From the NCBI RefSeq assembly GCF_006538165.1, contig NZ_BDLU01000063.1, positions 62,001 to 126,000 on the forward strand: a stretch of DNA of 64,000 nt, in the 5' to 3' direction. The DNA is from Komagataeibacter diospyri. GTDB lineage: Bacteria; Pseudomonadota; Alphaproteobacteria; Acetobacterales; Acetobacteraceae. A model generated the notes under the pieces. The model saw only the letters and a list, made by a program, of their open reading frames with translations. It did not search any database and was not told the origin of the DNA. How positions within the stretch are numbered: position 1 is the first letter of the stretch; each line of letters opens with the position of its first letter. Position numbers and translations under genes: made by a program. Positions 4,847 through 29,696 of the stretch are shown one piece after another.

Positions 4847-7885
<3,039 letters not shown>

Positions 7886-8044
7886 ACGTCTGTTTTTGCA
7901 GGCGCTGTGGGTGGGTGGGAAAAAAACTTTGGCGGGGGTGCGAAAAACACTTGCGCCACAAGGCCCGCAGGCCCTATCAGCGCCTCTCTTGGCCCAAGGG
8001 GGCAATCTTGCCCAACAGGCTGTCTACTGGTTTGGGGGTACGTG

Positions 8045-8509
8045 ATGAACGCACTTGCTCAACTGGGGATGGTCTCGGAACACCCGAGCGATAACCAGAT
8101 CTCTTCAGCGCCGTTTTCGTCCGAGGACGACCGGAAGGATTATTTCGTCGAAAAAGACGGAATGAAGTTTGCGGGAACGCACCTTCTTGTCGATCTTTGG
8201 GATGCCCGGAATCTTGATGATCCCGAGCAGATCGACCGTACCCTGTGTGAAGCCGCCGTGACGGCAGGGGCTACGATCTTGCACAGTCACTTCCATCACT
8301 TCACGCCCAATGGGGGCGTGTCAGGCGTGGTCGTGCTGGCGGAAAGCCATATCTCGATCCACACATGGCCCGAGCGGAACTTTGCCGCCGTGGATATTTT
8401 CATGTGTGGGGCATGCGATCCGCATCTTGCGATCCCGGTCATGCAGCGCCTGTTCCAGGCCGGCCGGATCGAGGTGGATGAGCAGCGCCGGGGGCGCGTG
8501 CAGCTTTAG
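8045..8509 (+). CDS. speD: S-adenosylmethionine decarboxylase proenzyme
   Basis: SpeD decarboxylates S-adenosylmethionine to give the aminopropyl donor for spermidine. It belongs to the small self-processing pyruvoyl class: cleavage should fall between E100 and S101 in LAESHISIHTWPE, turning S101 into the pyruvoyl group. H106 and C121 match the conserved processing and catalytic residues of this class. The start is ATG 8045 (or GTG 8042 one codon earlier) after a G-rich ribosome site. The protein is 154 residues, with a roughly 35-residue N-terminal extension relative to the shortest homologues. speE follows 131 nt downstream with a hairpin between them. Confidence 0.95.
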   Translation: MNALAQLGMVSEHPSDNQISSAPFSSEDDRKDYFVEKDGMKFAGTHLLVDLWDARNLDDPEQIDRTLCEAAVTAGATILHSHFHHFTPNGGVSGVVVLAESHISIHTWPERNFAAVDIFMCGACDPHLAIPVMQRLFQAGRIEVDEQRRGRVQL

Positions 8510-8573
8510 CCGGCTGTGGCCGGGGCAGGGTTCACCATGTCCCGGTGTGACTTTCACGACAAAACGCAAGTGT

Positions 8574-8606
8574 CGGGCCGGATTGATTTCCGGCCCGCGC
8601 TTTTTC
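8574..8606 (+). terminator. Rho-independent terminator between speD and speE
   Basis: The arms CGGGCCGG (8574-8581) and CCGGCCCG (8590-8597) form a perfect 8-bp stem with an 8-nt loop, followed by CGCTTTTTC. It lies after speD and 35 nt before the speE start, so it may attenuate rather than fully stop transcription into speE. Confidence 0.7.
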
Positions 8607-8640
8607 ATGTGCATTGATATAGGACGAAAGGGGGATCGCA

Positions 8641-9501
8641 ATGTCCCGTGAGTGGATCAGCGAAGGCCTGTACGAAGGCTGGCGGCAGGAACTGCGTGTG
8701 GACCGGATGCTGGCGCGCAAAAAAAGCGCGTTCCAGGATATCGCCGTGTTCGAGAACGTCGATCTCGGCCGCGTGCTGATGCTGGATGGCGTGGTCCAGA
8801 TCACGGAACGCGATGAATTCGTCTATCAGGAAATGCTGACCCATGTGCCGCTGCTGGAGCATGGCGATGCGAAGCGCGTGCTGATTATCGGCGCGGGTGA
8901 TGGCGGCGTGCTGCGGCGCGTGCTGGAACATGGCACCGTGGAAAAGGCCGTAATGGTCGAGATCGACGGTGACGTGATCGCACTGTCCAAGGAATTCCTG
9001 CCTTCCATCGCGGGGAACGCATGGAACGATCCGCGCGCCGAGGTGATCGTGGGCGACGGGATCGAATATGTGACCAATGCGGCAGACGGGTCGTTTGATG
9101 TCATCATCGTGGATAGCACCGACCCGATCGGGGTTGGGGAAGTGCTGTTTACCGATTCGTTCTACAAACACTGCGCCCGCATCCTGACGGCCAACGGCAT
9201 TATCGTGAACCAGTGTGGCGTGCCGTTCATGCAGGCGGATGAACTGCGCGATACCAGTGCGCGCCGCGCGCAGTTTTTCGACCATGTTTCGGCCTATGTC
9301 GCGGCGGTCCCCACCTATGTCGGCGGTTTCATGACGCTGGGTGTCGCGGCCAAGGGCGTTGTGCCGGGGCAGCAGCCGGTTGATGTGATCCGCGCGCGCG
9401 CGCAGAAGGCCGGCATTGCGCATACGCGGTACTGGACGCCGGAAATGCACGTCGCATCCTTCACCCTGCCGCCCTATATCGCGAAGAACCTGCCGCGCTG
9501 A
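8641..9501 (+). CDS. speE: Spermidine synthase (polyamine aminopropyltransferase)
   Basis: SpeE moves the aminopropyl group from decarboxylated SAM (made by SpeD) onto putrescine to form spermidine. The 286-residue protein shows the N-terminal beta domain (SAFQDIAVFENVDLGRVLML), then a Rossmann-type fold with GAGDGG near residue 84, VEIDGDVI, GDGIEYV and DSTDPIG, matching the dcSAM- and amine-binding positions of the family. The start ATG follows a GGGGAT ribosome site. No ornithine or arginine decarboxylase lies beside it, so putrescine must come from elsewhere. Confidence 0.97.
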   Translation: MSREWISEGLYEGWRQELRVDRMLARKKSAFQDIAVFENVDLGRVLMLDGVVQITERDEFVYQEMLTHVPLLEHGDAKRVLIIGAGDGGVLRRVLEHGTVEKAVMVEIDGDVIALSKEFLPSIAGNAWNDPRAEVIVGDGIEYVTNAADGSFDVIIVDSTDPIGVGEVLFTDSFYKHCARILTANGIIVNQCGVPFMQADELRDTSARRAQFFDHVSAYVAAVPTYVGGFMTLGVAAKGVVPGQQPVDVIRARAQKAGIAHTRYWTPEMHVASFTLPPYIAKNLPR

Positions 9502-9522
9502 ACGTATGACGCCGATGACATG

Positions 9523-9559
9523 AAAAAGGCCGGAGGGAAAAACCCCTCCGGCCTTTTTT
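9523..9559. terminator. Bidirectional intrinsic terminator between speE and the monooxygenase gene
   Basis: The arms GGCCGGAGGG (9528-9537) and CCCTCCGGCC (9544-9553) are perfectly complementary, with an A-run on the left and six T on the right. This is a classic two-way terminator between convergent genes. Confidence 0.92.
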
Positions 9560-9581
9560 CGTTGCGGCGTCAGGCTGACAG

Positions 9582-9893
9582 TCAGGACCTGGGCGCAATA
9601 CGCGCGGTCTTGCGCAGGCTGACCAGTTCCGCGCCCAGCTCCTTCACGGCCACTTCAAAGACCTTGAAGTGGGGGGTGGCGAGATGGGTCTCGAATGCGG
9701 CTTCATCATCATAGACTTCCACCAGGATGACGGTCTGCGGGTCATCCATCGGGCTGACTGCTTCAAATCGCTGGCAGCCGCTTTCATCCGCCACGGAATG
9801 CGCGCTGTCATAGGCGCACAGTTCAAGGAAGTGGTCACGGTTTTCAGCAGGAATTCGGAATTCGGCCACGATGGTCAGCGGGCTTGTGGTCAT
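9582..9893 (-). CDS. Antibiotic biosynthesis monooxygenase (ABM) domain protein
   Basis: A 103-residue single-domain protein of the ABM ferredoxin-like fold, the fold of YgiN-type quinol monooxygenases and heme-degrading enzymes. Features seen are the opening beta strand LTIVAEFRIPAENRDHFLEL, the RFE motif in CQRFEAV, VILVEVYDDEAAFETHLATPHF, and a C-terminal helix. Members act as dimers without a separate cofactor on small aromatic or quinone substrates, but substrate cannot be read from sequence. It is convergent with speE, and its 5' side faces the glycine riboswitch region, so it appears monocistronic. Confidence 0.85.
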   Translation of the reverse strand: MTTSPLTIVAEFRIPAENRDHFLELCAYDSAHSVADESGCQRFEAVSPMDDPQTVILVEVYDDEAAFETHLATPHFKVFEVAVKELGAELVSLRKTARIAPRS

Positions 9894-10026
9894 GGGGATG
9901 TATCCTTTTTACATTACGTGTCCAGAACGTCATACCTGAATGCAGGGGGGCGGCGGCGTCCTGGAGCCGGGATGGTTTTCATGGATTGACTTGGCGCATC
10001 CGGTCATGTCAAGTCAGCTCTGTCGA

Positions 10027-10183
10027 CACGGGAGAGACTGGCTTCGCGCCAGCGCCGAAGGAGCAACCGCCCCGGAAACTCTCAGGCCAAAGGACCGGTC
10101 GGCCAAGAATTCTGGAAAGAGGTATCCCTGACCCGGATATCCGCCGACGGGATAACGATCTCAGGCACATGCGACAGAAGGGG
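10027..10183 (+). ncRNA. Tandem glycine riboswitch with degenerate second aptamer
   Basis: A glycine-sensing mRNA leader upstream of the glycine cleavage genes. Aptamer 1 is canonical: GGAGAG (10031-10036), hairpin CTGGC-loop-GCCAG, core GCCGAAGGAGCAA (10053-10065), CTCTCAGG (10079-10086) and the closing AAAGGACC. Aptamer 2 spans about 10110-10179: its closing helix pairs TTCTG (10110-10114) with CAGAA (10175-10179), and a TATCCC/GGGATA stem (10124-10129 with 10149-10154) is present. Its core is only partly conserved (GCCGACGGG, ATCTCAGGC) and the hairpin after the core seems missing. Families of this RNA normally switch on gcv expression when glycine is abundant. Confidence 0.93.
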
Positions 10184-10217
10184 CTCTTTGAATCCATCCG
10201 GATTCGACAGGAGTCCC
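10180..10217 (+). promoter_or_regulatory. Predicted ribosome-site-sequestering hairpin (riboswitch expression platform)
   Basis: GGGGCTC (10180-10186) can pair with GAGTCCC (10211-10217) through seven pairs including one G-U, enclosing a second stem GAATCC/GGATTC (10190-10195 with 10200-10205). The right arm contains the GAG of the AGGAG ribosome site (10209-10213) that precedes the leader ORF at 10220. The left arm begins at the 3' edge of aptamer 2, so ligand-dependent folding could plausibly control this hairpin. Inferred by eye, not from a folding calculation. Confidence 0.5.
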
Positions 10218-10219
10218 GC

Positions 10220-10369
10220 ATGTTCACGCCGTTGCCTGCCCGTGTTTTTCCCCTGTCCCCGTTTTCCGTTCCCTGTTCCGCTGGCGCGTACCGTGCCACG
10301 TTGTCCGCATGCCGTGCATGTGGGGCTGCCTGCGCGCATGCGGACCTGCACAAGGCCCAGCCCGCATGA
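10220..10369 (+). CDS. Possible 49-residue leader peptide overlapping gcvT
   Basis: A 49-codon ORF lies between the glycine riboswitch and gcvT. It has a better ribosome site (AGGAG, 6 nt from the ATG) than gcvT itself. Its stop codon overlaps the gcvT start as ATGA (10366-10369), the usual geometry of translational coupling. The predicted peptide (starting MFTPLPARVFPLSPF, rich in Pro, Ala and Cys) resembles no family I know and may matter only through its translation. I infer that ribosomes finishing it reinitiate on gcvT. It could be a chance ORF; conservation in related genomes would decide. Confidence 0.45.
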   Translation: MFTPLPARVFPLSPFSVPCSAGAYRATLSACRACGAACAHADLHKAQPA

Positions 10370-11499
10370 ACCAGCCCCTGCTGCGTACGCCGCTTTACGA
10401 CCTTCACCTTGAACTCGGCGCGCGGATGGTGCCGTTCGCGGGTTATGACATGCCGGTACAGTATCCTGCCGGTGTCATGGCCGAACACCTGCACACCCGG
10501 GCGAAGGCGGGACTGTTCGATGTCTCGCACATGGGGCAGGTGCGCATCCGCCCGAAATCCGGCCAGATCGCGGACGCCGCCCATGCGCTGGAGGCGCTGG
10601 TGCCCGCCGATATCGTTGGCCTGAAACCCGGTCGCCAGCGTTATGCCGTATTCACGACGGCGGATGGCGGCATTAGCGACGACCTGATGGTCACCAACAT
10701 GGGTGACTGGCTGCTGCTGGTGGTCAATGCCGCGTGCAGGGATGCCGATTTCGCGCATGTGCATGACGCGCTGAATGCCAGCTGTGATGTGGAAATGCTG
10801 GCCGATCGTGCCCTGATCGCGCTGCAGGGGCCAGCGGCGGAAGCAGCCCTTGTTGCCCTTGATCCCAAAGCCGCCGGAATGCGTTTCATGGACGTGGCGC
10901 AGATGGAACTGGCGGGTGTTTCCTGCATCGTCTCGCGGTCCGGCTATACGGGTGAGGACGGTTTTGAAATCGGCATGGCGGAAGACGGGGCGCTCACCGT
11001 GGCCCGTGCCCTGCTGGCCCATCCCGATGTTGCGCCTGTCGGCCTTGGTGCGCGTGACAGCCTGCGGCTGGAAGCCGGGCTGTGCCTGTACGGGTCCGAT
11101 ATCGACCAGACCACCACCCCGGTTGAGGCCGCCCTTGAATGGTCCATCCAGAAAAGCCGTAAACCCGGTGGTGCGCGGGCCGGTGGTTATCCGGGGGCTG
11201 CGATCATGGCCGAGCAGTTGACGGATGGCACGACGCGCCGCCGTGTGGGGCTGCGTGCGCAGGGGCGTGCGCCAGTCCGTGGCGGGGCCGAACTGTTCGC
11301 CGATGAAGCGGGCACGCAGCCAGCCGGTTATGTGACGTCGGGTGCATTTGGCCCCAGCGTGGGGGGGCCCGTCGCCATGGGGTATGTGGCGGCCGACCAT
11401 GCAGCCATCGGCGCATCACTGTTCGCCAGCGTGCGTGGCCGGTTGCTGCCGGTGGTGGTAACGGCGCTGCCCTTCGTGGCGGCGACCTTCAAACGCTAG
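10366..11499 (+). CDS. gcvT: Aminomethyltransferase (glycine cleavage system T protein)
   Basis: GcvT takes the aminomethyl group from lipoylated H protein and passes the methylene carbon to tetrahydrofolate, releasing ammonia. The 377-residue protein opens with TPLYDLHLELGARMVPFAGYDMP, has the FDVSHMGQ motif near residue 50 and SGYTGEDGFEI near residue 195, and ends in the C-terminal barrel domain. The ATG at 10366 matches the family N-terminus; an upstream in-frame ATG at 10309 would add 19 Cys/Arg-rich residues unlike the family. It has no good ribosome site of its own and overlaps the leader ORF by 4 nt. First gene of gcvT-gcvH-gcvP. Confidence 0.97.
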   Translation: MNQPLLRTPLYDLHLELGARMVPFAGYDMPVQYPAGVMAEHLHTRAKAGLFDVSHMGQVRIRPKSGQIADAAHALEALVPADIVGLKPGRQRYAVFTTADGGISDDLMVTNMGDWLLLVVNAACRDADFAHVHDALNASCDVEMLADRALIALQGPAAEAALVALDPKAAGMRFMDVAQMELAGVSCIVSRSGYTGEDGFEIGMAEDGALTVARALLAHPDVAPVGLGARDSLRLEAGLCLYGSDIDQTTTPVEAALEWSIQKSRKPGGARAGGYPGAAIMAEQLTDGTTRRRVGLRAQGRAPVRGGAELFADEAGTQPAGYVTSGAFGPSVGGPVAMGYVAADHAAIGASLFASVRGRLLPVVVTALPFVAATFKR

Positions 11500-11548
11500 G
11501 GTTTTTCCCTGTTTTTTCAGACATATTTCAGATCAATGGAGCATGGAC

Positions 11549-11914
11549 ATGACTGTTTATTACACCAAGGAACATGAGTGGCTGCGCGTTGAGGGCGATG
11601 TCGCGGTTGTCGGCATTACCGCCCATGCGGCGAATGAACTGGGCGAACTGGTCTTTGCCGAAGCCCGCGATCCCGGCACGACGGTGGAACAGGGCGACAG
11701 CGTGGCCGTGGTGGAATCGGTCAAGGCTGCGTCCGATATCTACGCGCCGGTAACGGGTGACGTGCTGGCGTTCAACGATGCGCTGGGTGATGACGCGGCC
11801 CTGGTCAACCGTGACCCGGAAGGTGAAGGCTGGATCGTGCGCATGACCATTGCGGATGCATCCCAGCTTGCGGGTCTGATGGACAAGGCCACCTATACCG
11901 CACTGGTTGGCTGA
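11549..11914 (+). CDS. gcvH: Glycine cleavage system H protein
   Basis: GcvH is the lipoyl carrier that shuttles the aminomethyl group between P and T proteins. The 121-residue product contains the lipoylation site as ESVKAASD with K59 the modified lysine, and the family opening [21 protein letters not shown]. Two ATGs are close together; I choose 11549 because TGGAG at 11537-11541 is 7 nt away, whereas the ATG at 11543 is only 1 nt from it. It sits 49 nt after gcvT and 32 nt before gcvP, in one operon. Confidence 0.97.
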
Positions 11915-11946
11915 TCTTCCCACCTGTTTCCCCTGCTTTACGGAGT

Positions 11947-14841
11947 ATGCTGGCCGTGACGTCTTCCCCCTGTGGTTCTTCTTCCCTGTGGCATGATCTG
12001 GGTGATGATGCCGGTGCGTTCTGCACCCGTCATGTCGGACCGGATGCCAATGATGTGGCCGACATGCTACGTGTGGTGGGGGCGGACAGCCTCGATACGC
12101 TTATGGCGCAGACAGTGCCGGGCAATATCCGCCTGTCGGGGGCCATGGGCCTTGGCGCGGGCGTGCCCGAACATGTCGCACTGGCCCGTCTGCGCGCGAT
12201 TGCGGCGGAAAACCGGGTTCTGACATCGCTGATCGGGCAGGGGTATTACGATACGATCCTGCCCGGCGTAATCCAGCGCAACGTGCTGGAAAACCCGGCC
12301 TGGTATACGGCCTATACCCCGTACCAGCCCGAAATCAGCCAGGGACGGCTGGAAGCACTGCTGAACTTCCAGACGCTGGTGATCGAACTGACCGGGCTGG
12401 ACGTGGCCAATGCCTCGCTGCTGGATGAGGGGACGGCAGCTGCCGAAGCCATGGCCATGGCCCGCCGCGTGGCCAAGACCAGGGCGAACGCCTTTTTCAT
12501 CGATGCCGACTGTCACCCGCAGACCATCGCGGTCGTGCGCACCCGTGCCGAACCGATGGGCTGGCAGGTCGTGGTGGGTGATCCCGCTACCGATCTGGAC
12601 CCGCAGGCGGTGTTTGGCGCGCTGTTCCAGTATCCGGGATCATCGGGGGAAATCCGCGATCCACGCGCATGGATCGAAAGCCTGCACGCGACGGGCGCGA
12701 TTGCGGGTGTCGCGGCGGACCCCATGGCGCTGATGCTGCTGGAAAGCCCCGGCGCACTGGGGGCGGATATCGCCATCGGGTCCATGCAGCGTTACGGCAT
12801 GCCCATGGGGGCGGGTGGCCCGCATGCGGCCTATATGGCGACGCGTGATGCGTTCCGCCGCAATATTCCGGGGCGGATCGTGGGCGTGTCCATCGATTCG
12901 CGCGGCAATCCCGCCTACCGTCTGGCGCTGCAGACGCGTGAGCAGCATATCCGCCGTGAAAAGGCGACATCGAACATCTGCACCGCACAGGCGCTGCCCG
13001 CCATCGTGTCGTCCATGTATGCGCTGTACCATGGCCCGGTGGGCCTGAGGGCCATCGCCACGCGCATCAACAGGCTTGCCACGATCATGGCAGCAGGCCT
13101 GCGTGCGCTGGGTGCAACGGTTGTGACAACGGCGTTCTTTGATACGGTTACGGTTGAAACCGGCGCGGATACGGACGCCGTGATGGCGCGTGCGCTGGAT
13201 GCGGGCATGAACCTGCGCCGCGTGGACGCGACGCATGTGGGCATAAGCCTTGATGAAACCACCACGCCAGACACGGTGCGCGCGGTCTGGGCCCGCGTGA
13301 GCGGCGACGCGACGAAGGTCGGGCAGGTCGAGGCCAGCCTTGCCGATATCGCCAGCCCCATCCCCGCAGGCCTTGCCCGCACGGGCACAATGCTGACCCA
13401 GCCCATCTTTTCCGCCTGCCGGTCGGAAACCGACATGCTGCGTTACCTGCGCCGCCTTGCCGATCGTGACCTGGCGCTGGACCGTTCCATGATCCCGCTG
13501 GGGTCATGCACCATGAAGCTGAACGCCACGGCGGAAATGCTGCCGATCACATGGCCGGAATTCTGCAATATCCATCCCTTCGCGCCAGCGGACCAGATGC
13601 GCGGTTATGCCCGTCTGTTTACCGACCTTGAGCGGATGCTGTGCCAGATCAGCGGTTATGCCGCTGTCTCGCTCCAGCCCAATTCCGGCGCACAGGGGGA
13701 GTTCGCGGGGCTTATGGCCATTCGCGGCTATCACCATGCACGTGGCGACATAGGGCGTGACGTATGCCTGATCCCGGCATCGGCGCACGGCACGAATCCC
13801 GCATCGGCGCAGATGGCGGGCATGCGTATCGTGGTGGTGGCGTGCGATCCGCAGGGTAATGTCGATATTGACGACCTGAAGGCCAAGATCGCGAAACACG
13901 CCGACGATCTGGCCGCGATCATGATTACCTATCCTTCCACCCATGGTGTGTTTGAAGACAACGTGCGCGAAATCTGCGCACTGGTGCACGCGGCAGGTGG
14001 GCAGGTGTATGTCGATGGCGCGAACCTGAACGCGCAGGTCGGTCTTGCGCAGCCGGGCGTGTATGGCGGGGATGTCAGCCATTTCAACCTGCACAAGACC
14101 TTCTGCATTCCGCATGGTGGCGGTGGCCCCGGCATGGGGCCGATCGGGGTGGGCGCGCATCTGGCCCCCTACCTGCCGGGCGCGCCGCAGAAGGGTGAGG
14201 CCAATGCCATTTCGGCAGCCCCCTTCGGGTCCGCCGATGTTCTGCCCATTTCGTGGATGTACATGGTCATGATGGGTGATGCGGGACTGAAGCGCGCGAC
14301 CGAGGTCGCGATCCTGAATTCCAACTACATCGCAACCCGGCTGTCATCACATTATCCCGTGCTGTACCGCGGCGCGAACGGGCGGGTTGCGCATGAATGC
14401 ATCATCGACCTGCGCCCGCTGAAGGATAAGGTCGGCGTTACGGTGGATGACATCGCCAAACGCCTGATCGACCACGGGTTCCATGCGCCTACGGTCAGCT
14501 TTCCGGTAGCGGGCACATTCATGATCGAACCCACAGAATCCGAAAGCCGGACCGAACTGGACCGCTTCTGTGATGCGATGATCGCCATCCGCGCCGAAAT
14601 CACGGCGGTTGAAAATGGCGTGCTGACCATCGACGACAGTCCCCTGCGCCACGCCCCGCATACCGTGCGTGACGTGACCGACCCGGACTGGGCCCATGTC
14701 TATGACCGCGCGCAGGCCAGCCTGCCGGGGGCTGTGGTGGCGGCCAGCAAATACTGGTCCCCGGTCAACCGGCTGGATAATGCCTATGGGGATCGCAACC
14801 TTGTCTGTTCATGTCCCGATATCAGCACCTATGCTGGTTAG
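11947..14841 (+). CDS. gcvP: Glycine dehydrogenase (decarboxylating), P protein
   Basis: GcvP is the PLP-dependent decarboxylase of the glycine cleavage system. It is the full-length single-chain form (964 residues), not the split GcvPA/GcvPB type. The PLP lysine is K717 in [19 protein letters not shown], preceded by [15 protein letters not shown] and [11 protein letters not shown] typical of the C-terminal half; the N-terminal half has the related [14 protein letters not shown] and GGPHAAYMA motifs. The ribosome site CGGAG is very close to the ATG at 11947, so initiation at the GTG at 11956 is also possible. Last gene of the riboswitch-controlled operon; the L protein gene is not here. Confidence 0.98.
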
Positions 14842-24752: not shown

Positions 24753-24782
24753 AAAAAAGGGACCATCCCATGGGATGGTCCC
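24753..24782 (-). terminator. Intrinsic terminator on the minus strand (gap-pgk transcript)
   Basis: The arms 24759-24770 (GGGACCATCCCA) and 24771-24782 are perfect inverted repeats, with six A at 24753-24758 that become a T-run in minus-strand transcripts. Orientation therefore fits termination of the pgk transcript after it crosses the adjacent repeat element. It could also form a hairpin after ftsY. Confidence 0.75.
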
Positions 24783-24791
24783 TGACCTGAA

Positions 24792-24888: not shown

Positions 24889-26112
24889 TCAGATCGGCAT
24901 CGCGCGTTCAAAAATGTTTTCCAGCGCCATGATGCCCGGCAGTGTCTTGCCTTCCATCCATTCGAGGAAGGCCCCGCCCGCGCTGGAAATGTAGGAGATA
25001 TGCTTCTCCACCCCCGCATGACGCAGGGCCGAAACCGTATCCCCGCCACCTGCAATGCTTTTCAGCGCACCGGCATCGGTCAGGCGCGCCACGTCGCGCG
25101 CTACCGCATTGGTCGCGGCGTCAAATGGCGTGATTTCGAATGCACCCAGCGGACCGTTCCAGACCAGCGTTTTCAGCGTCGCGATCTTCTGCTCGATCAG
25201 CTTGACTGTTTCCGGCCCGACATCCAGCATCATTGCGTCATCAGGAATGGCGGTGACGGGCACGGTGCGGGTCGGCACGTCGGCCCTGAAATCAGTGGCG
25301 GTCACGGCGTCAACCGGCAGCACGATCTCGCAGCCCTTTTCCTTTGCTTTCGCAAGGATGTCGCGCGCGGTGTCATGCATGTCCGCTTCCTGCAGGGACC
25401 GGCCCACATTCACACCCTGCGCCGCAAGGAACGTGTTGGCCATGGCGCCACCAATGATCAGCATGTCCACCTTGGCCAGCAGGTTGCCGATCAGGTCGAG
25501 CTTGGTGGAGATCTTGGCCCCGCCCACAATGGCGCCCACCGGACGCGCCGGGTTTTCCAGCGCGATGTTCAGTGCGTTGAGTTCCGTCTCCATCAGCCGC
25601 CCGGCAAAGGACGGCAGCAGGCGGGCCACGCCCTCGGTCGAAGCATGGGCGCGGTGGGCGGCGGAAAACGCGTCATTGACATAGTAATCGGCAAGCGAAG
25701 CGAATTCCTTCGCCAGGGCGGGGTCGTTCTGTTCCTCCCCAGGATAGAAACGGGTGTTTTCCAGCACGACGACATCCCCGTCCTGCATGGCGTCCACCGC
25801 CTCCTGCACCTTCGGTCCGATGCAGTCATCGACGAATGTGACCGGACGGCCCAGCGCATCCCCCAGCGCATCGGCGATCGGGCCAAGCGACATTTCCGGC
25901 ACGGGCTTGCCCTTGGGGCGGTCGAAGTGACTGACGACAATCACCTTCGCACCCTTGCGGGCCAGTTCCTGTATGGTAGGCAGCAGGCGCAGGATGCGGG
26001 TTGCGTCCGTGATCTGGGCGTTACGGACCGGAACGTTCAGATCAGCGCGCAGGAGGACCTTCTTGCCGGTGGCGTCAAGGTCGTCCAGCGTCTTGAATGA
26101 TGTCGCGCCCAT
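24889..26112 (-). CDS. pgk: Phosphoglycerate kinase
   Basis: Pgk interconverts 1,3-bisphosphoglycerate plus ADP with 3-phosphoglycerate plus ATP. The 407-residue protein has the N-domain substrate motif [29 protein letters not shown] and the nucleotide-binding [11 protein letters not shown] and [11 protein letters not shown]. The ATG at 26112 shares its A with the TAA stop of gap (TAATG), so the two are translationally coupled and the enzymes catalyse consecutive steps. The upstream in-frame ATG at 26166 would lie inside gap. Confidence 0.98.
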
Positions 26113-27134
26113 TACAGTGCCCCGAATACGGCAGCCGTGTCGGCCATGCGGTTGGAGAAACCCCATTCATTGTCATACCAGCTGCAGATGCGCACCAGCT
26201 TGCCGCCATCGATCACGGCTGTCTGGGTCGCGTCAAAGGTGGAGGACGCGGGGGAGTGGTTGAAATCCGTGCTGACCAGCGGCGCGGTGTTATAGGCGAG
26301 GATGCCTTTCAGCGGGCCGGACTCGGATGCCGCACGTAGCGCATCGTTTACTTCCTCGACCGAGGCCGGGGCTTTTTTGGGCACAAAATCCAGCGAGACG
26401 AGCGAGACGTTGGGGGTGGGCACACGAATGGCGGTGCCATCCAGCCGGCCCTTCAGGTGCGGCAGCACCAGCCCCACGGCGCGCGCGGCCCCGGTGGAGG
26501 TCGGGATCATGTTCAGCGCCGCCCCGCGTGCGCGGCGCAGGTCCTTGTGCAGCGTGTCCACCGTGCGCTGGTCCCCGGTGTAGGAATGGATGGTGACCAT
26601 GTAGCCGCATTCGATGCCGAACGTGTCATCCAGCACCTTGGCCACCGGGGCCAGGCAGTTGGTGGTGCATGACGCGTTTGAAATGACGGTCATGTCAGGG
26701 GTCAGCACGTCCTGGTTCACGCCGTACACGATCGTGGCGTCCACGCCCGATGCGGGGGCGGACACGATTACCTTGCGTGCGCCCGCCTTGATCAGCTGGG
26801 CTGCCTTTTCCTTGTCGGTGAAACGGCCGGTGCATTCCAGCGCCACGTCCACGCCCTGGAGCGGTACCTTTGTCGGGTCGGCCTCGGCCGAGACGGTGAT
26901 GGGGTCGTAGGTACGACCGTTGGCGGTGATGATGATCTGGTTGCCGTTCACCTTCACTTCGGCGGGGAAGCGGCCATGCACGCTGTCGTAGGACAGCAGG
27001 TGTGCGTTATCTGCCACGCTGCCAAGGTCATTGATGGCCACGGGCACGACATCGGTGCGTCCGCTTTCGATAATGCCACGTAGCACAAGGCGACCAATGC
27101 GACCGAAACCGTTTATTGCGACTTTAACAGCCAT
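26112..27134 (-). CDS. gap: Glyceraldehyde-3-phosphate dehydrogenase (type I)
   Basis: Converts glyceraldehyde-3-phosphate, phosphate and NAD(P)+ to 1,3-bisphosphoglycerate. The 340-residue protein has the nucleotide-binding INGFGRIGR at the N-terminus, the catalytic cysteine C156 in SNASCTTNC, and the catalytic His in the following [15 protein letters not shown] after strand 2 is the alphaproteobacterial variant. The ATG follows GGAGAAAATAAGAAA. It lies 30 nt after the transketolase-like gene and overlaps pgk by 1 nt, reproducing the tkt-gap-pgk order of many alphaproteobacteria. Confidence 0.98.
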
Positions 27135-27164: not shown

Positions 27165-29096
27165 TCACACACTGGCATCGGTTGATGCCATCCCGGGCGG
27201 CGCGCCGTTTCCTCCCGCGGTTTCAACCAGGGCGTCGGACTGGGGGCGGACCAGACGCAATGCGTCGCGGCAGATCCGTTCCGGCGTGATGTCGGCGGTG
27301 CTGTCTGGCCGGTCGGGGGCGGAAGGCGCCCCGAATCCGTCAATACCAACAAACAGCCCGTCCGTTCCAAGCCATCGTTCCCATCCAAACCCTGAAGCGG
27401 CCTCTATTCCGATCCGGGGTGCCGTTCCCAGCACGGCGGCACGATACGTCATTTTTTGCACGGCGAACAGTTCCCAGCATGGAAGGGAGACGACAGCCGC
27501 CGCAACCCCCGCATCCCGCAGCAGTTTGCGCGCCGCCAGCGCCAGTATGGCCTCGTGCCCCGTGGCGACCAGCGTGACCTGTCGCGTGCCTTCGGCTTCG
27601 GCCAGTACATAACCGCCCCGTGCGCACAGGTTGGTCAGTCCGTGCTGTTCACGTTCAGGGGCCGCGGAAGTTGCCAGCGCGGGAGTGGATTCCAGCGTCA
27701 GCAGGCTTGGCCCGCTGGTCCGCCGCAGTGCCAGTTCCATGCATTCCATGGTCTCACGGTGGTCGGCGGGACGGAAAACCGCGACGTTTGGCATGGCGCG
27801 CAGGCTGGCAAGCTGTTCCACCGGCTGGCCGCCGCCCGCCCCGTCGCCGCGCAGCAGGTCGTCATCGGTCAGCAGGTAGATCACCTGCTGGTCCGTCATG
27901 GCGGCGTAGCGCAGGGCAGGGCGCATGCGGTCCACCGCGATGATGGTCGATGTGCCGAACGCCAGCAGTCCGTCATGCATGGCAATGCCATTGAGCAGGG
28001 CAGCCATGCCATGCACCTGTGTCCCGCATGACAGGTCGATTTCGCTGCCGCCCCGACGGTTGGCGGGCAGGTCGGCCAGCATGCCCCGGCGTGAACGCAG
28101 GCAGGTCAGTTCGGGCAGGAGTTCATGCAGGGTCTCGAGTCCCCGCTGTGCAGCAAAGGTGGGGGAAACACGGGCGATCGCACTGCCATGTTCCCGCCAT
28201 GACCGCTGCCAGTCGGGTTGCCAGAAGGCGGGACGCTGGTTGCGGGCCATGCGTTCGAATTCGGCTTTCTGCCTGTCTTTTAGCAATCTGCGCAGCCATG
28301 AACGCCGCGCGCTGGCCCCCCGGCGCGCGGCCCCTGCCCACAGGCCCGGATCATCGGCGAAGGGCGGTGGCGGGTCGGTTTCGGGGGCTGCGATACAGGC
28401 GATCAGGCAGGGTTTGTGCGTACGCTGCGATGATGTGATGGCGGCCGCGATCTGTTCGGGGCTGGCTGCGTTCACCTTCCTGACCGACCAGCCCGATGCG
28501 CTGTAGCGCGGCAGTATGGCGTCCACGGCCTCGCGCTCGTTCAGCCACAGGCCAACGACCAGTGTGACGCGGTCCAGCCCCATCTGGCCTGCAAGGGCAG
28601 CGCTTTCCAGTGCGACACCGGTGGACAGCTCCGTCCAGCAGCCCAGTCCCCAGATGCGGTGGTTGACCAGCGAACGGCCGAACCGTGCCGCAAGGTTCTG
28701 TTCCGCCAGTGCCATGCCGATCGCCGCCCCCAGCCCCTGCCCGCTGGGGCCACAGGCCTGCCGGTCGTGCCGGGCGCGCGCAGGGTCGCCCACGCGTGGC
28801 GGCAGTGGCGCCTGTCCCGACAGTTCGGCCATGATGCGCGGCAGTACACGATAACGTGGGGACGATACCACGACGCGGTCCCGGTCCGGCCATTCGGGGC
28901 TGGCGGGATCGAAGCGCAGGAAGCGACTCCACAACACCGCGCAGAAATCAGCCATGACCTGCGCATGCGGGGCGTAACGGCGGTCGGGCTCGTGGGTGCT
29001 GATGGCGTGGCGGATCGCCGTTGCCAGCCGCTGGGGCATGTTGGCGGCGGCGGGGGATGCCGCGGGTAGGGGCGTGCTGGCTAGGTCTTCAGGCAT
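27165..29096 (-). CDS. Transketolase-family protein lacking cofactor and catalytic motifs (probable pseudoenzyme)
   Basis: A full-length 643-residue transketolase-fold protein, uninterrupted, with the three domains recognisable: N-terminal (MADFCAVLW, GPSGQGLGAAIGMALAEQNLAARFGR), middle (LNGIAMHDGLLAFGTST, QPVEQLASLRAMPNVAVFRPAD) and C-terminal (RGGYVLAEA, YRAAVLG, GFGWERWLG). The key residues are gone. By eye-alignment to E. coli TktA, His26 becomes Y41, His66 becomes R81, the thiamine-diphosphate/Mg GDG becomes GLG (150-152), the essential Glu411 becomes V361, and His473 becomes G423. It should not bind thiamine diphosphate normally. It occupies the tkt slot of a tkt-gap-pgk operon, so it probably descends from a true transketolase. 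A functional one is expected elsewhere in the genome. Confidence 0.85.
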   Translation of the reverse strand: MPEDLASTPLPAASPAAANMPQRLATAIRHAISTHEPDRRYAPHAQVMADFCAVLWSRFLRFDPASPEWPDRDRVVVSSPRYRVLPRIMAELSGQAPLPPRVGDPARARHDRQACGPSGQGLGAAIGMALAEQNLAARFGRSLVNHRIWGLGCWTELSTGVALESAALAGQMGLDRVTLVVGLWLNEREAVDAILPRYSASGWSVRKVNAASPEQIAAAITSSQRTHKPCLIACIAAPETDPPPPFADDPGLWAGAARRGASARRSWLRRLLKDRQKAEFERMARNQRPAFWQPDWQRSWREHGSAIARVSPTFAAQRGLETLHELLPELTCLRSRRGMLADLPANRRGGSEIDLSCGTQVHGMAALLNGIAMHDGLLAFGTSTIIAVDRMRPALRYAAMTDQQVIYLLTDDDLLRGDGAGGGQPVEQLASLRAMPNVAVFRPADHRETMECMELALRRTSGPSLLTLESTPALATSAAPEREQHGLTNLCARGGYVLAEAEGTRQVTLVATGHEAILALAARKLLRDAGVAAAVVSLPCWELFAVQKMTYRAAVLGTAPRIGIEAASGFGWERWLGTDGLFVGIDGFGAPSAPDRPDSTADITPERICRDALRLVRPQSDALVETAGGNGAPPGMASTDASV

Positions 29097-29231: not shown

Positions 29232-29696
29232 ATGTCCCGTCCGTCCCCGCGCCCTGTCCGCCGCGTCCTTCTTGTCGCATTCGCCTGCCTGCCGGTAATG
29301 GGCGGGTGCAAGCTGATCGGCCAGAAAACATTCAACCGCCATGCGGGCGACCCGCCACAACTGCCGCAGCATCCGCCGCCGCCGGTGCCCGGCATTGACC
29401 GTCCCGCGCTGGTGACCATTGTGGCGGGAACGCCTGATACACAATGGAAACCCGCCGTTCGCGCCGCCGTGGCCGATGCCCTGTCGCGCAAGCCCAATGC
29501 GCTGTTCACCATTGTGGTCAGCGTGCCCGACCGGGGCGATGGCGGCGTGCCGGACATGCAGAAAGTGGTGGATGCCAATGGCCAGCCGGTACTGCAGGCG
29601 GTGATGGATGCCGGTGCCGGTGGCAGCCAGACGGAAATGGACGCCCGCAGTGTGCCCGCGAACAGTGCAACCCAGGTCTGCATTTATGCGCAGTAG
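29232..29696 (+). CDS. Small lipoprotein of unknown function
   Basis: A 154-residue predicted lipoprotein: basic RPVRR, hydrophobic VLLVAFACLPVMGG and lipobox cysteine C26 (MGGC). The mature part begins with a Pro-rich stretch (PPQLPQHPPPPVPG) and continues with ALVTIVAGTPDTQWKPAVRAAVADAL and repeated short beta-like segments. I recognise no family. It is divergent from the transketolase-like gene (135 bp apart) and upstream of hemA on the same strand. The signal sequence and codon pattern support it over overlapping minus-strand frames. Confidence 0.6.
   Translation: MSRPSPRPVRRVLLVAFACLPVMGGCKLIGQKTFNRHAGDPPQLPQHPPPPVPGIDRPALVTIVAGTPDTQWKPAVRAAVADALSRKPNALFTIVVSVPDRGDGGVPDMQKVVDANGQPVLQAVMDAGAGGSQTEMDARSVPANSATQVCIYAQ

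Follow-up and report, generated by a model that had tools for sequence, protein, structure and literature searches.

A recurrent pseudo-transketolase in the gap-pgk operon of Acetobacteraceae, probably retained for a non-catalytic role

Transketolase occupies a central place in sugar metabolism, and its active sites sit at the dimer interface. Pseudoenzymes are already known as a kind, and human TKTL1 is known as a transketolase-like case. According to PMC6555833, recombinant TKTL1, which shares 61% identity with TKT and carries one 38-residue deletion, is virtually without activity, and TKTL1–TKT heterodimers show altered activity. This inactivity is disputed, as a study that detected activity is cited in the same paper, and the title of PMC6334435 names TKTL1 and TKTL2 bona fide transketolases. 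TKTL1 may be regarded as the nearest precedent for the bacterial protein described here, through a likeness of features: each is a paralogue with an altered ThDP domain that exists beside a true transketolase. However, TKTL1 has one deletion, whereas the bacterial protein has lost nearly every active-site residue; its gene, unlike that of TKTL1, is the copy that occupied the operon from the start, and degeneration has recurred in several bacterial lineages. With the bacterial transketolases (TIGR00232; E. coli TktA), the protein shares the three-domain order and about half of the conserved framework, but 20 of 21 cofactor and catalytic residues are missing, as are large parts of the active-site loops; with the active alphaproteobacterial transketolases, it shares the position before gap. 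No bacterial pseudo-transketolase appeared among the literature matches listed, as judged by title and start of abstract and with subscription journals thinly covered, and neither such a family nor its repeated emergence in a single operon slot was found in the literature searched.

The window, a 64,000-nucleotide stretch of Komagataeibacter diospyri DNA, contains the gene at the head of a gap-pgk arrangement (Table 1). As the earlier note had described, the 643-codon frame is complete, gap follows closely with pgk behind it, and all three transketolase domains are recognizable, with Pfam matches to Transketolase_N (E 1e-23, partial), Transket_pyr (E 1.7e-15, partial), and Transketolase_C_1 (E 3.5e-29). 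The best relatives among Protein Data Bank sequences are transketolases (E 1.2e-65). The protein scores 269.4 bits against TIGR00232 (NCBIfam), below the cut-off of 682.25, compared with 833.2 for a true copy from the same genome. It is 95% identical to its K. swingsii counterpart, and sequencing error was rejected on the evidence of 13 further Komagataeibacter loci. The constrained core spans about residues 41–610, with weak constraint on the ~40 residues before it and the ~33 after it, and translation may in fact begin at an internal codon such as Met20. The terminator-like stem after pgk is a possible operon end, although the five such sites in the region are not above chance as a total (3.4, sd 2.2, in shuffles). 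Relatives of the divergent small open reading frame beside the gene adjoin the pseudo-transketolase in many related genomes, including one (G117) in which gap lies elsewhere.

Table 1. Features at the pseudo-transketolase locus (window positions)
Feature	Position	Strand	Remarks
Pseudo-transketolase CDS	27165..29096	minus	643 aa
gap, glyceraldehyde-3-phosphate dehydrogenase	26112..27134	minus	start 30 nt past pseudo-transketolase stop codon
pgk, phosphoglycerate kinase	24889..26112	minus	likely start ATG overlaps gap stop (TAATG)
Terminator-like 11-bp stem and T run after pgk	24758..24783	minus	consensus match only
Divergent open reading frame	29232..29696	plus	154 aa; no Pfam match

The loss of the active site was scored at 21 positions of E. 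coli TktA (from MG1655), which we take to be its ThDP, substrate, and catalytic residues, in MAFFT and HMMER alignments that agree where both cover. The window protein retains only one of the 21, Gly114. The earlier note had proposed by eye that the catalytic features were removed, and profile alignment upholds each of the named replacements (His26 by Tyr41, His66 by Arg81, Glu411 by Val361, and His473 by Gly423) except in one detail: the Mg-binding Asp of the GDG motif is indeed gone, but the GLG at 150–152 is not its partner, as GDG (154–156) aligns with Cys153-Trp154-Thr155. His100, Glu160, Asn185, Ile187, His261, Arg358, and Ser385 are also lost, as are Phe434, Phe437, Tyr440, His461, Asp469, and Arg520. 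Around His100, Asn185, His261, and Ser385, only 32, 67, 22, and 71% of the alignment columns are filled, so that these stretches are shortened. Thus, neither the ThDP/Mg site (the GDG...N motif and Glu411) nor the catalytic His residues of a competent transketolase are present. A set of 43 active transketolases (TktA, both canonical copies of this genome, and 40 slot copies) served to define positions with at least 95% conservation; of these, the window protein retains 1 of 19 that are catalytic versus 107 of 204 others (Fisher p=4.5e-5), and the catalytic loss is targeted, beyond chance. The same preference (p<0.01) is found in 23 of 24 hand-picked degenerate representatives, with the remaining one, L018, at p=0.052. 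The three least eroded copies have lost 4–6 of the 19 catalytic positions versus 8–28 of the 204 others; the active site erodes first.

What the degenerate proteins conserve is their framework. The active enzymes share 223 conserved positions, and 37 of these are unchanged in every one of the 24 degenerate representatives, including D56-R57-D58-R59, H147, R446, R492-P493, E498, Y541, R608, and W619; Phe434, Phe437, Ser385, and His473 are retained in none of the 24. Within the acetic-acid-bacteria clade (20 proteins), 145 positions are at least 90% conserved, of which 135 are as in the active enzymes and 10 are derived. One derived residue, Arg390, which corresponds to TktA Tyr440, is present in 20 of 20 proteins of this clade and in 0 of 16 other degenerate proteins, both comparison sets being hand-picked. 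Pocket positions vary between the degenerate lineages and the framework is common to them, a pattern more readily reconciled with a fold that acts by binding than with a shared new chemistry.

The origin of the slot upstream of gap was traced by sampling the class Alphaproteobacteria, since an order-level sample contained the same family only. The gap gene was sought in 96 genomes, yielding 74 matches at E ≤1e-110, 72 of them outside Acetobacteraceae, and the upstream stretch was fetched from 40 of the 72, which represent 40 different families. A complete slot transketolase occurs in 33 of the 40, and all 33 are canonical, with 20–21 of the 21 residues, in agreement with the earlier proposal that this slot normally houses an active enzyme; two further families have a fragment at a contig end, and five are without the gene (one on a short stretch). 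An active transketolase before gap is therefore widespread and was probably present in the common ancestor. Dead slot versions were found only in Acetobacteraceae when compared with the 40 other families sampled.

Within Acetobacteraceae, 200 genomes were searched and gap was sought in 139, giving 137 matches at E ≤1e-60, two of which (G002 and G167) are a diverged paralogue only. Upstream DNA was examined for 108 of the genomes. Residue scores have a bimodal distribution: 43 slots are canonical, 35 are degenerate, and 2 are intermediate at 13 of 21 residues, in addition to 22 empty and 6 unclassified slots. The unclassified slots comprise L063 and L093 (less than 0.7 kb upstream), L094 and L095 (a fragment or broken frame), and L097 and L116, omitted by hand (no transketolase frame in 3.4 kb upstream). 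Five partial slots were set by hand, L033, L071, and L121 as degenerate and L117 and L119 as canonical; L098 (16/21) was counted as canonical, and L029 and L076, which come from one genome, entered the count a single time. One canonical copy (L124) lies 1.5 kb from gap. The empty slots, which include G117 with its gene elsewhere and 21 genomes without such a displaced copy, indicate that the gene can be lost. Three proteins are candidate intermediates by their active-site residues: L098 (G151) with 16/21, and L020 (G078) and L022 (G092) with 13/21 each.

On a Gap protein tree, canonical and degenerate states interchange at least 10 times, a number that is uncertain since the tree is built from a single gene, 30 of its 105 branches are open, and the bootstrap is unsettled. 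The firm part of the recurrence claim consists of three within-genus contrasts between sisters on starred branches: G194 with 4/21 versus G151 with 16/21, G154 with 3/21 versus G097 with 20/21, and G199 with 9/21 versus G099 with 20/21.

The presence of a second transketolase in the genome, for which the earlier note had suggested a search, was confirmed twice over, as the source genome encodes two others, each with all 21 residues. One of these (L002/L223), homologous to the pseudo-transketolase but with its active site intact, is followed in an operon-like arrangement by frames that match transaldolase/phosphoglucose isomerase (tal/pgi), 6-phosphogluconate dehydrogenase (gnd), and glucose-6-phosphate dehydrogenase (zwf), whereas the pseudo-transketolase stands with gap-pgk. 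The other belongs to a second operon-like run (L224, positions 5205–13039 of the 13,266-base contig C95 of G000); it is 82% identical to the copy on contig C54, and the frames downstream are similar in size to tal/pgi, gnd, and zwf, so that the pentose phosphate operon is apparently duplicated in the source genome. G060 also carries a second tkt of this kind. A canonical copy elsewhere, residue-checked at 19–21 of 21, occurs in all 37 genomes with a degenerate or intermediate slot, compared with a further copy in 15 of the 43 canonical-slot genomes, where 14 of the second copies were assigned on the strength of similarity alone (E up to 1e-70). The raw association has a Fisher p of 5.7e-11 with relatedness ignored; corrected for kinship, it comes down to 5 independent pairs when starred branches are used and 10 when all are; 2–3 of these pairs run in the expected direction and 0 against, and the sign test is not significant. 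A second transketolase looks permissive, but not sufficient, for degeneration of the slot.

Selection on the protein was estimated as dN/dS by NG86 on hand-chosen pairs, except for the set from genera g31 and g43. Values in Komagataeibacter range from 0.05 to 0.22 (14 chosen pairs), with domain values of 0.15 (PP), 0.14 (linker), 0.23 (Pyr), and 0.145 (C), compared with 0.38 and 0.66 in the tails. The true transketolase gives 0.06–0.08 in Komagataeibacter (including the pentose phosphate operon copy) and 0.04–0.17 in other genera, and the Komagataeibacter pseudo-transketolase evolves two to three times faster than the true enzyme. In g31 and g43, the median is 0.15 (range 0.02–0.32) over 28 of 220 pairs, the rest having been dropped because dS fell outside 0.05–1, and the lowest pair, G205/G169, has dN 0.013 at dS 0.56. 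Lineages g11 and g54 give 0.12 and 0.20, and the median over 14 chosen degenerate pairs is 0.16 versus 0.21 over 15 chosen active slot pairs. Constraint looks relaxed in some degenerate pairs, namely G056/G181 of one genus (0.43), G181/G086 (0.47), and G043/G080 (0.66, the highest value, from frames of only 534 and 512 codons); G042/G123 (0.31) and G053/G130 (0.36, untrimmed) are also higher. Mixed canonical/degenerate pairs give 0.17, 0.45, and 0.45. The change of state is thus accompanied by a relaxation of constraint that still seems to persist in some lineages. The protein is under purifying selection in Komagataeibacter and several other genera, with other pairs at 0.31–0.66, and the stops, frameshifts, and dN/dS near 1 of a decayed pseudogene are seen in none of Komagataeibacter, g31, and g43. 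The earlier note's claim that the gene is not decaying is thereby supported for Komagataeibacter, although a few other lineages look relaxed.

A disfavoured and quite improbable alternative to selection on the protein is that the gene is a decaying relic whose frame stays open only because stops would cut the expression of gap-pgk by polarity. The slot adjoins gap in nearly all loci examined, with open frames, and the relaxed lineages, including the within-genus pair at 0.43, are in keeping with this explanation; however, most within-genus dN/dS values (0.02–0.32) demand more than an open frame. A natural separation of the operon in genus g31 also speaks against it (loci L026 and L085 of G117). 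In this genus, the gene persists free of internal stops in 21 of 22 genomes, the one that lacks it being 1.7 Mb in size, and 20 of the 21 copies adjoin gap by coordinates. The gap gene of G117 is located on a different contig, where the 3.4 kb upstream contain no transketolase frame, but the pseudo-transketolase persists as an open frame of 626 aa inside a contig of 16 kb, next to relatives of the window's divergent small frame and aminotransferase-type gene as before; the frame downstream resembles aconitase B by eye. A strict cis link to gap is thus not required, and the 21 other genomes that have gap without a slot transketolase frame count against polarity as well. Together with most dN/dS values, G117 indicates that polarity alone is insufficient for retention. 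The converse proposal, that the protein is a still-active transketolase with its catalytic residues placed elsewhere, was rejected, and its probability is close to nil: no support for a relocated site was found, the two alignment methods agree where both cover, the key loops are shortened, and the score falls far under the TIGR00232 cut-off that a true copy exceeds.

Two further explanations accept the loss of transketolase activity and differ in what replaced it. A new catalytic chemistry in a remodelled pocket, which the earlier note had named as an alternative, would be compatible with the strong constraint and with the 10 derived positions of the acetic-acid-bacteria clade, including Arg390 in all 20 proteins compared; we consider it improbable, as 135 of the 145 conserved positions are ancestral framework, Arg390 is absent from the 16 other degenerate proteins compared, pocket positions vary by lineage, and the active-site loops have been shortened, not rebuilt. 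Somewhat less improbable, but still unlikely, is a TKTL1-like regulator that would form a heterodimer with the active transketolase and tune its activity or substrate preference. The formation of active sites at the dimer interface is favourable to this analogy, as are the canonical transketolase in 37 of 37 degenerate or intermediate genomes and the TKTL1–TKT heterodimers reported in PMC6555833. However, such co-occurrence is expected anyway in cells that need one active enzyme, and the precedent is itself disputed (PMC6555833; title of PMC6334435). In addition, the active partners differ in kind: most are 58–100% identical to the L002 copy, but those of G199, G086, G154, G053, and G179 are only 46–48% identical, making a single conserved interface with all of them doubtful.

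Given three-domain homology without the catalytic residues, in a frame open in many species, the window protein is very probably a pseudoenzyme of the transketolase family. As judged from sequence comparison, the loss of the site, its repetition on the Gap tree, the replacement copy, and purifying selection in several genera are all demonstrated. The best reading, which we regard as probable, is that pseudo-transketolases have arisen repeatedly and are retained because they act by binding without catalysis. The protein would descend from the active transketolase of the ancestral alphaproteobacterial tkt-gap operon slot. In Acetobacteraceae with another canonical transketolase (in Komagataeibacter, that of the tkt-tal/pgi-gnd-zwf operon), it has shed the ThDP/Mg site, residues of the substrate channel, and a large part of the active-site loops, but the three-domain framework was kept. 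It would still be made, fold as a transketolase-type dimer, and act by binding instead of catalysis, perhaps, as the earlier note had suggested, as a regulatory or scaffolding partner of the co-made Gap and Pgk or of the active transketolase. A binding or regulatory role in general is somewhat favoured, but any one specific partner would be a doubtful choice. The predicted monomer structure has a mean pLDDT of 40.7 (14-row alignment), and with such low confidence the fold, the dimer, and the shape of the pocket rest on homology.

The slot enzyme probably already had this second function, which would explain why separate lineages converged on the same outcome. A bolder and more tentative extension is that the gap-pgk operon transketolase has an old non-catalytic function, as a scaffold or metabolite-sensing regulator of lower glycolysis and gluconeogenesis, which separate catalytic losses have exposed; if so, the active slot transketolases of other Alphaproteobacteria would still be bifunctional. 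The repeated shedding of an active site under continued selection constitutes a natural experiment that points to a non-catalytic role of the fold. This is directly testable in one genus with active, partly eroded, and dead versions (g92) and in two with active and dead versions (g97 and g99). Annotation by domain matches may label pseudo-transketolases as transketolase, so that metabolic models of cellulose-producing Komagataeibacter may include a non-working enzyme. PMC3035290 lists a transketolase N-terminal section and a C-terminal section among the roles found in just one of the two sequences of Gluconacetobacter diazotrophicus PAl 5, which may reflect an odd transketolase annotated in pieces.
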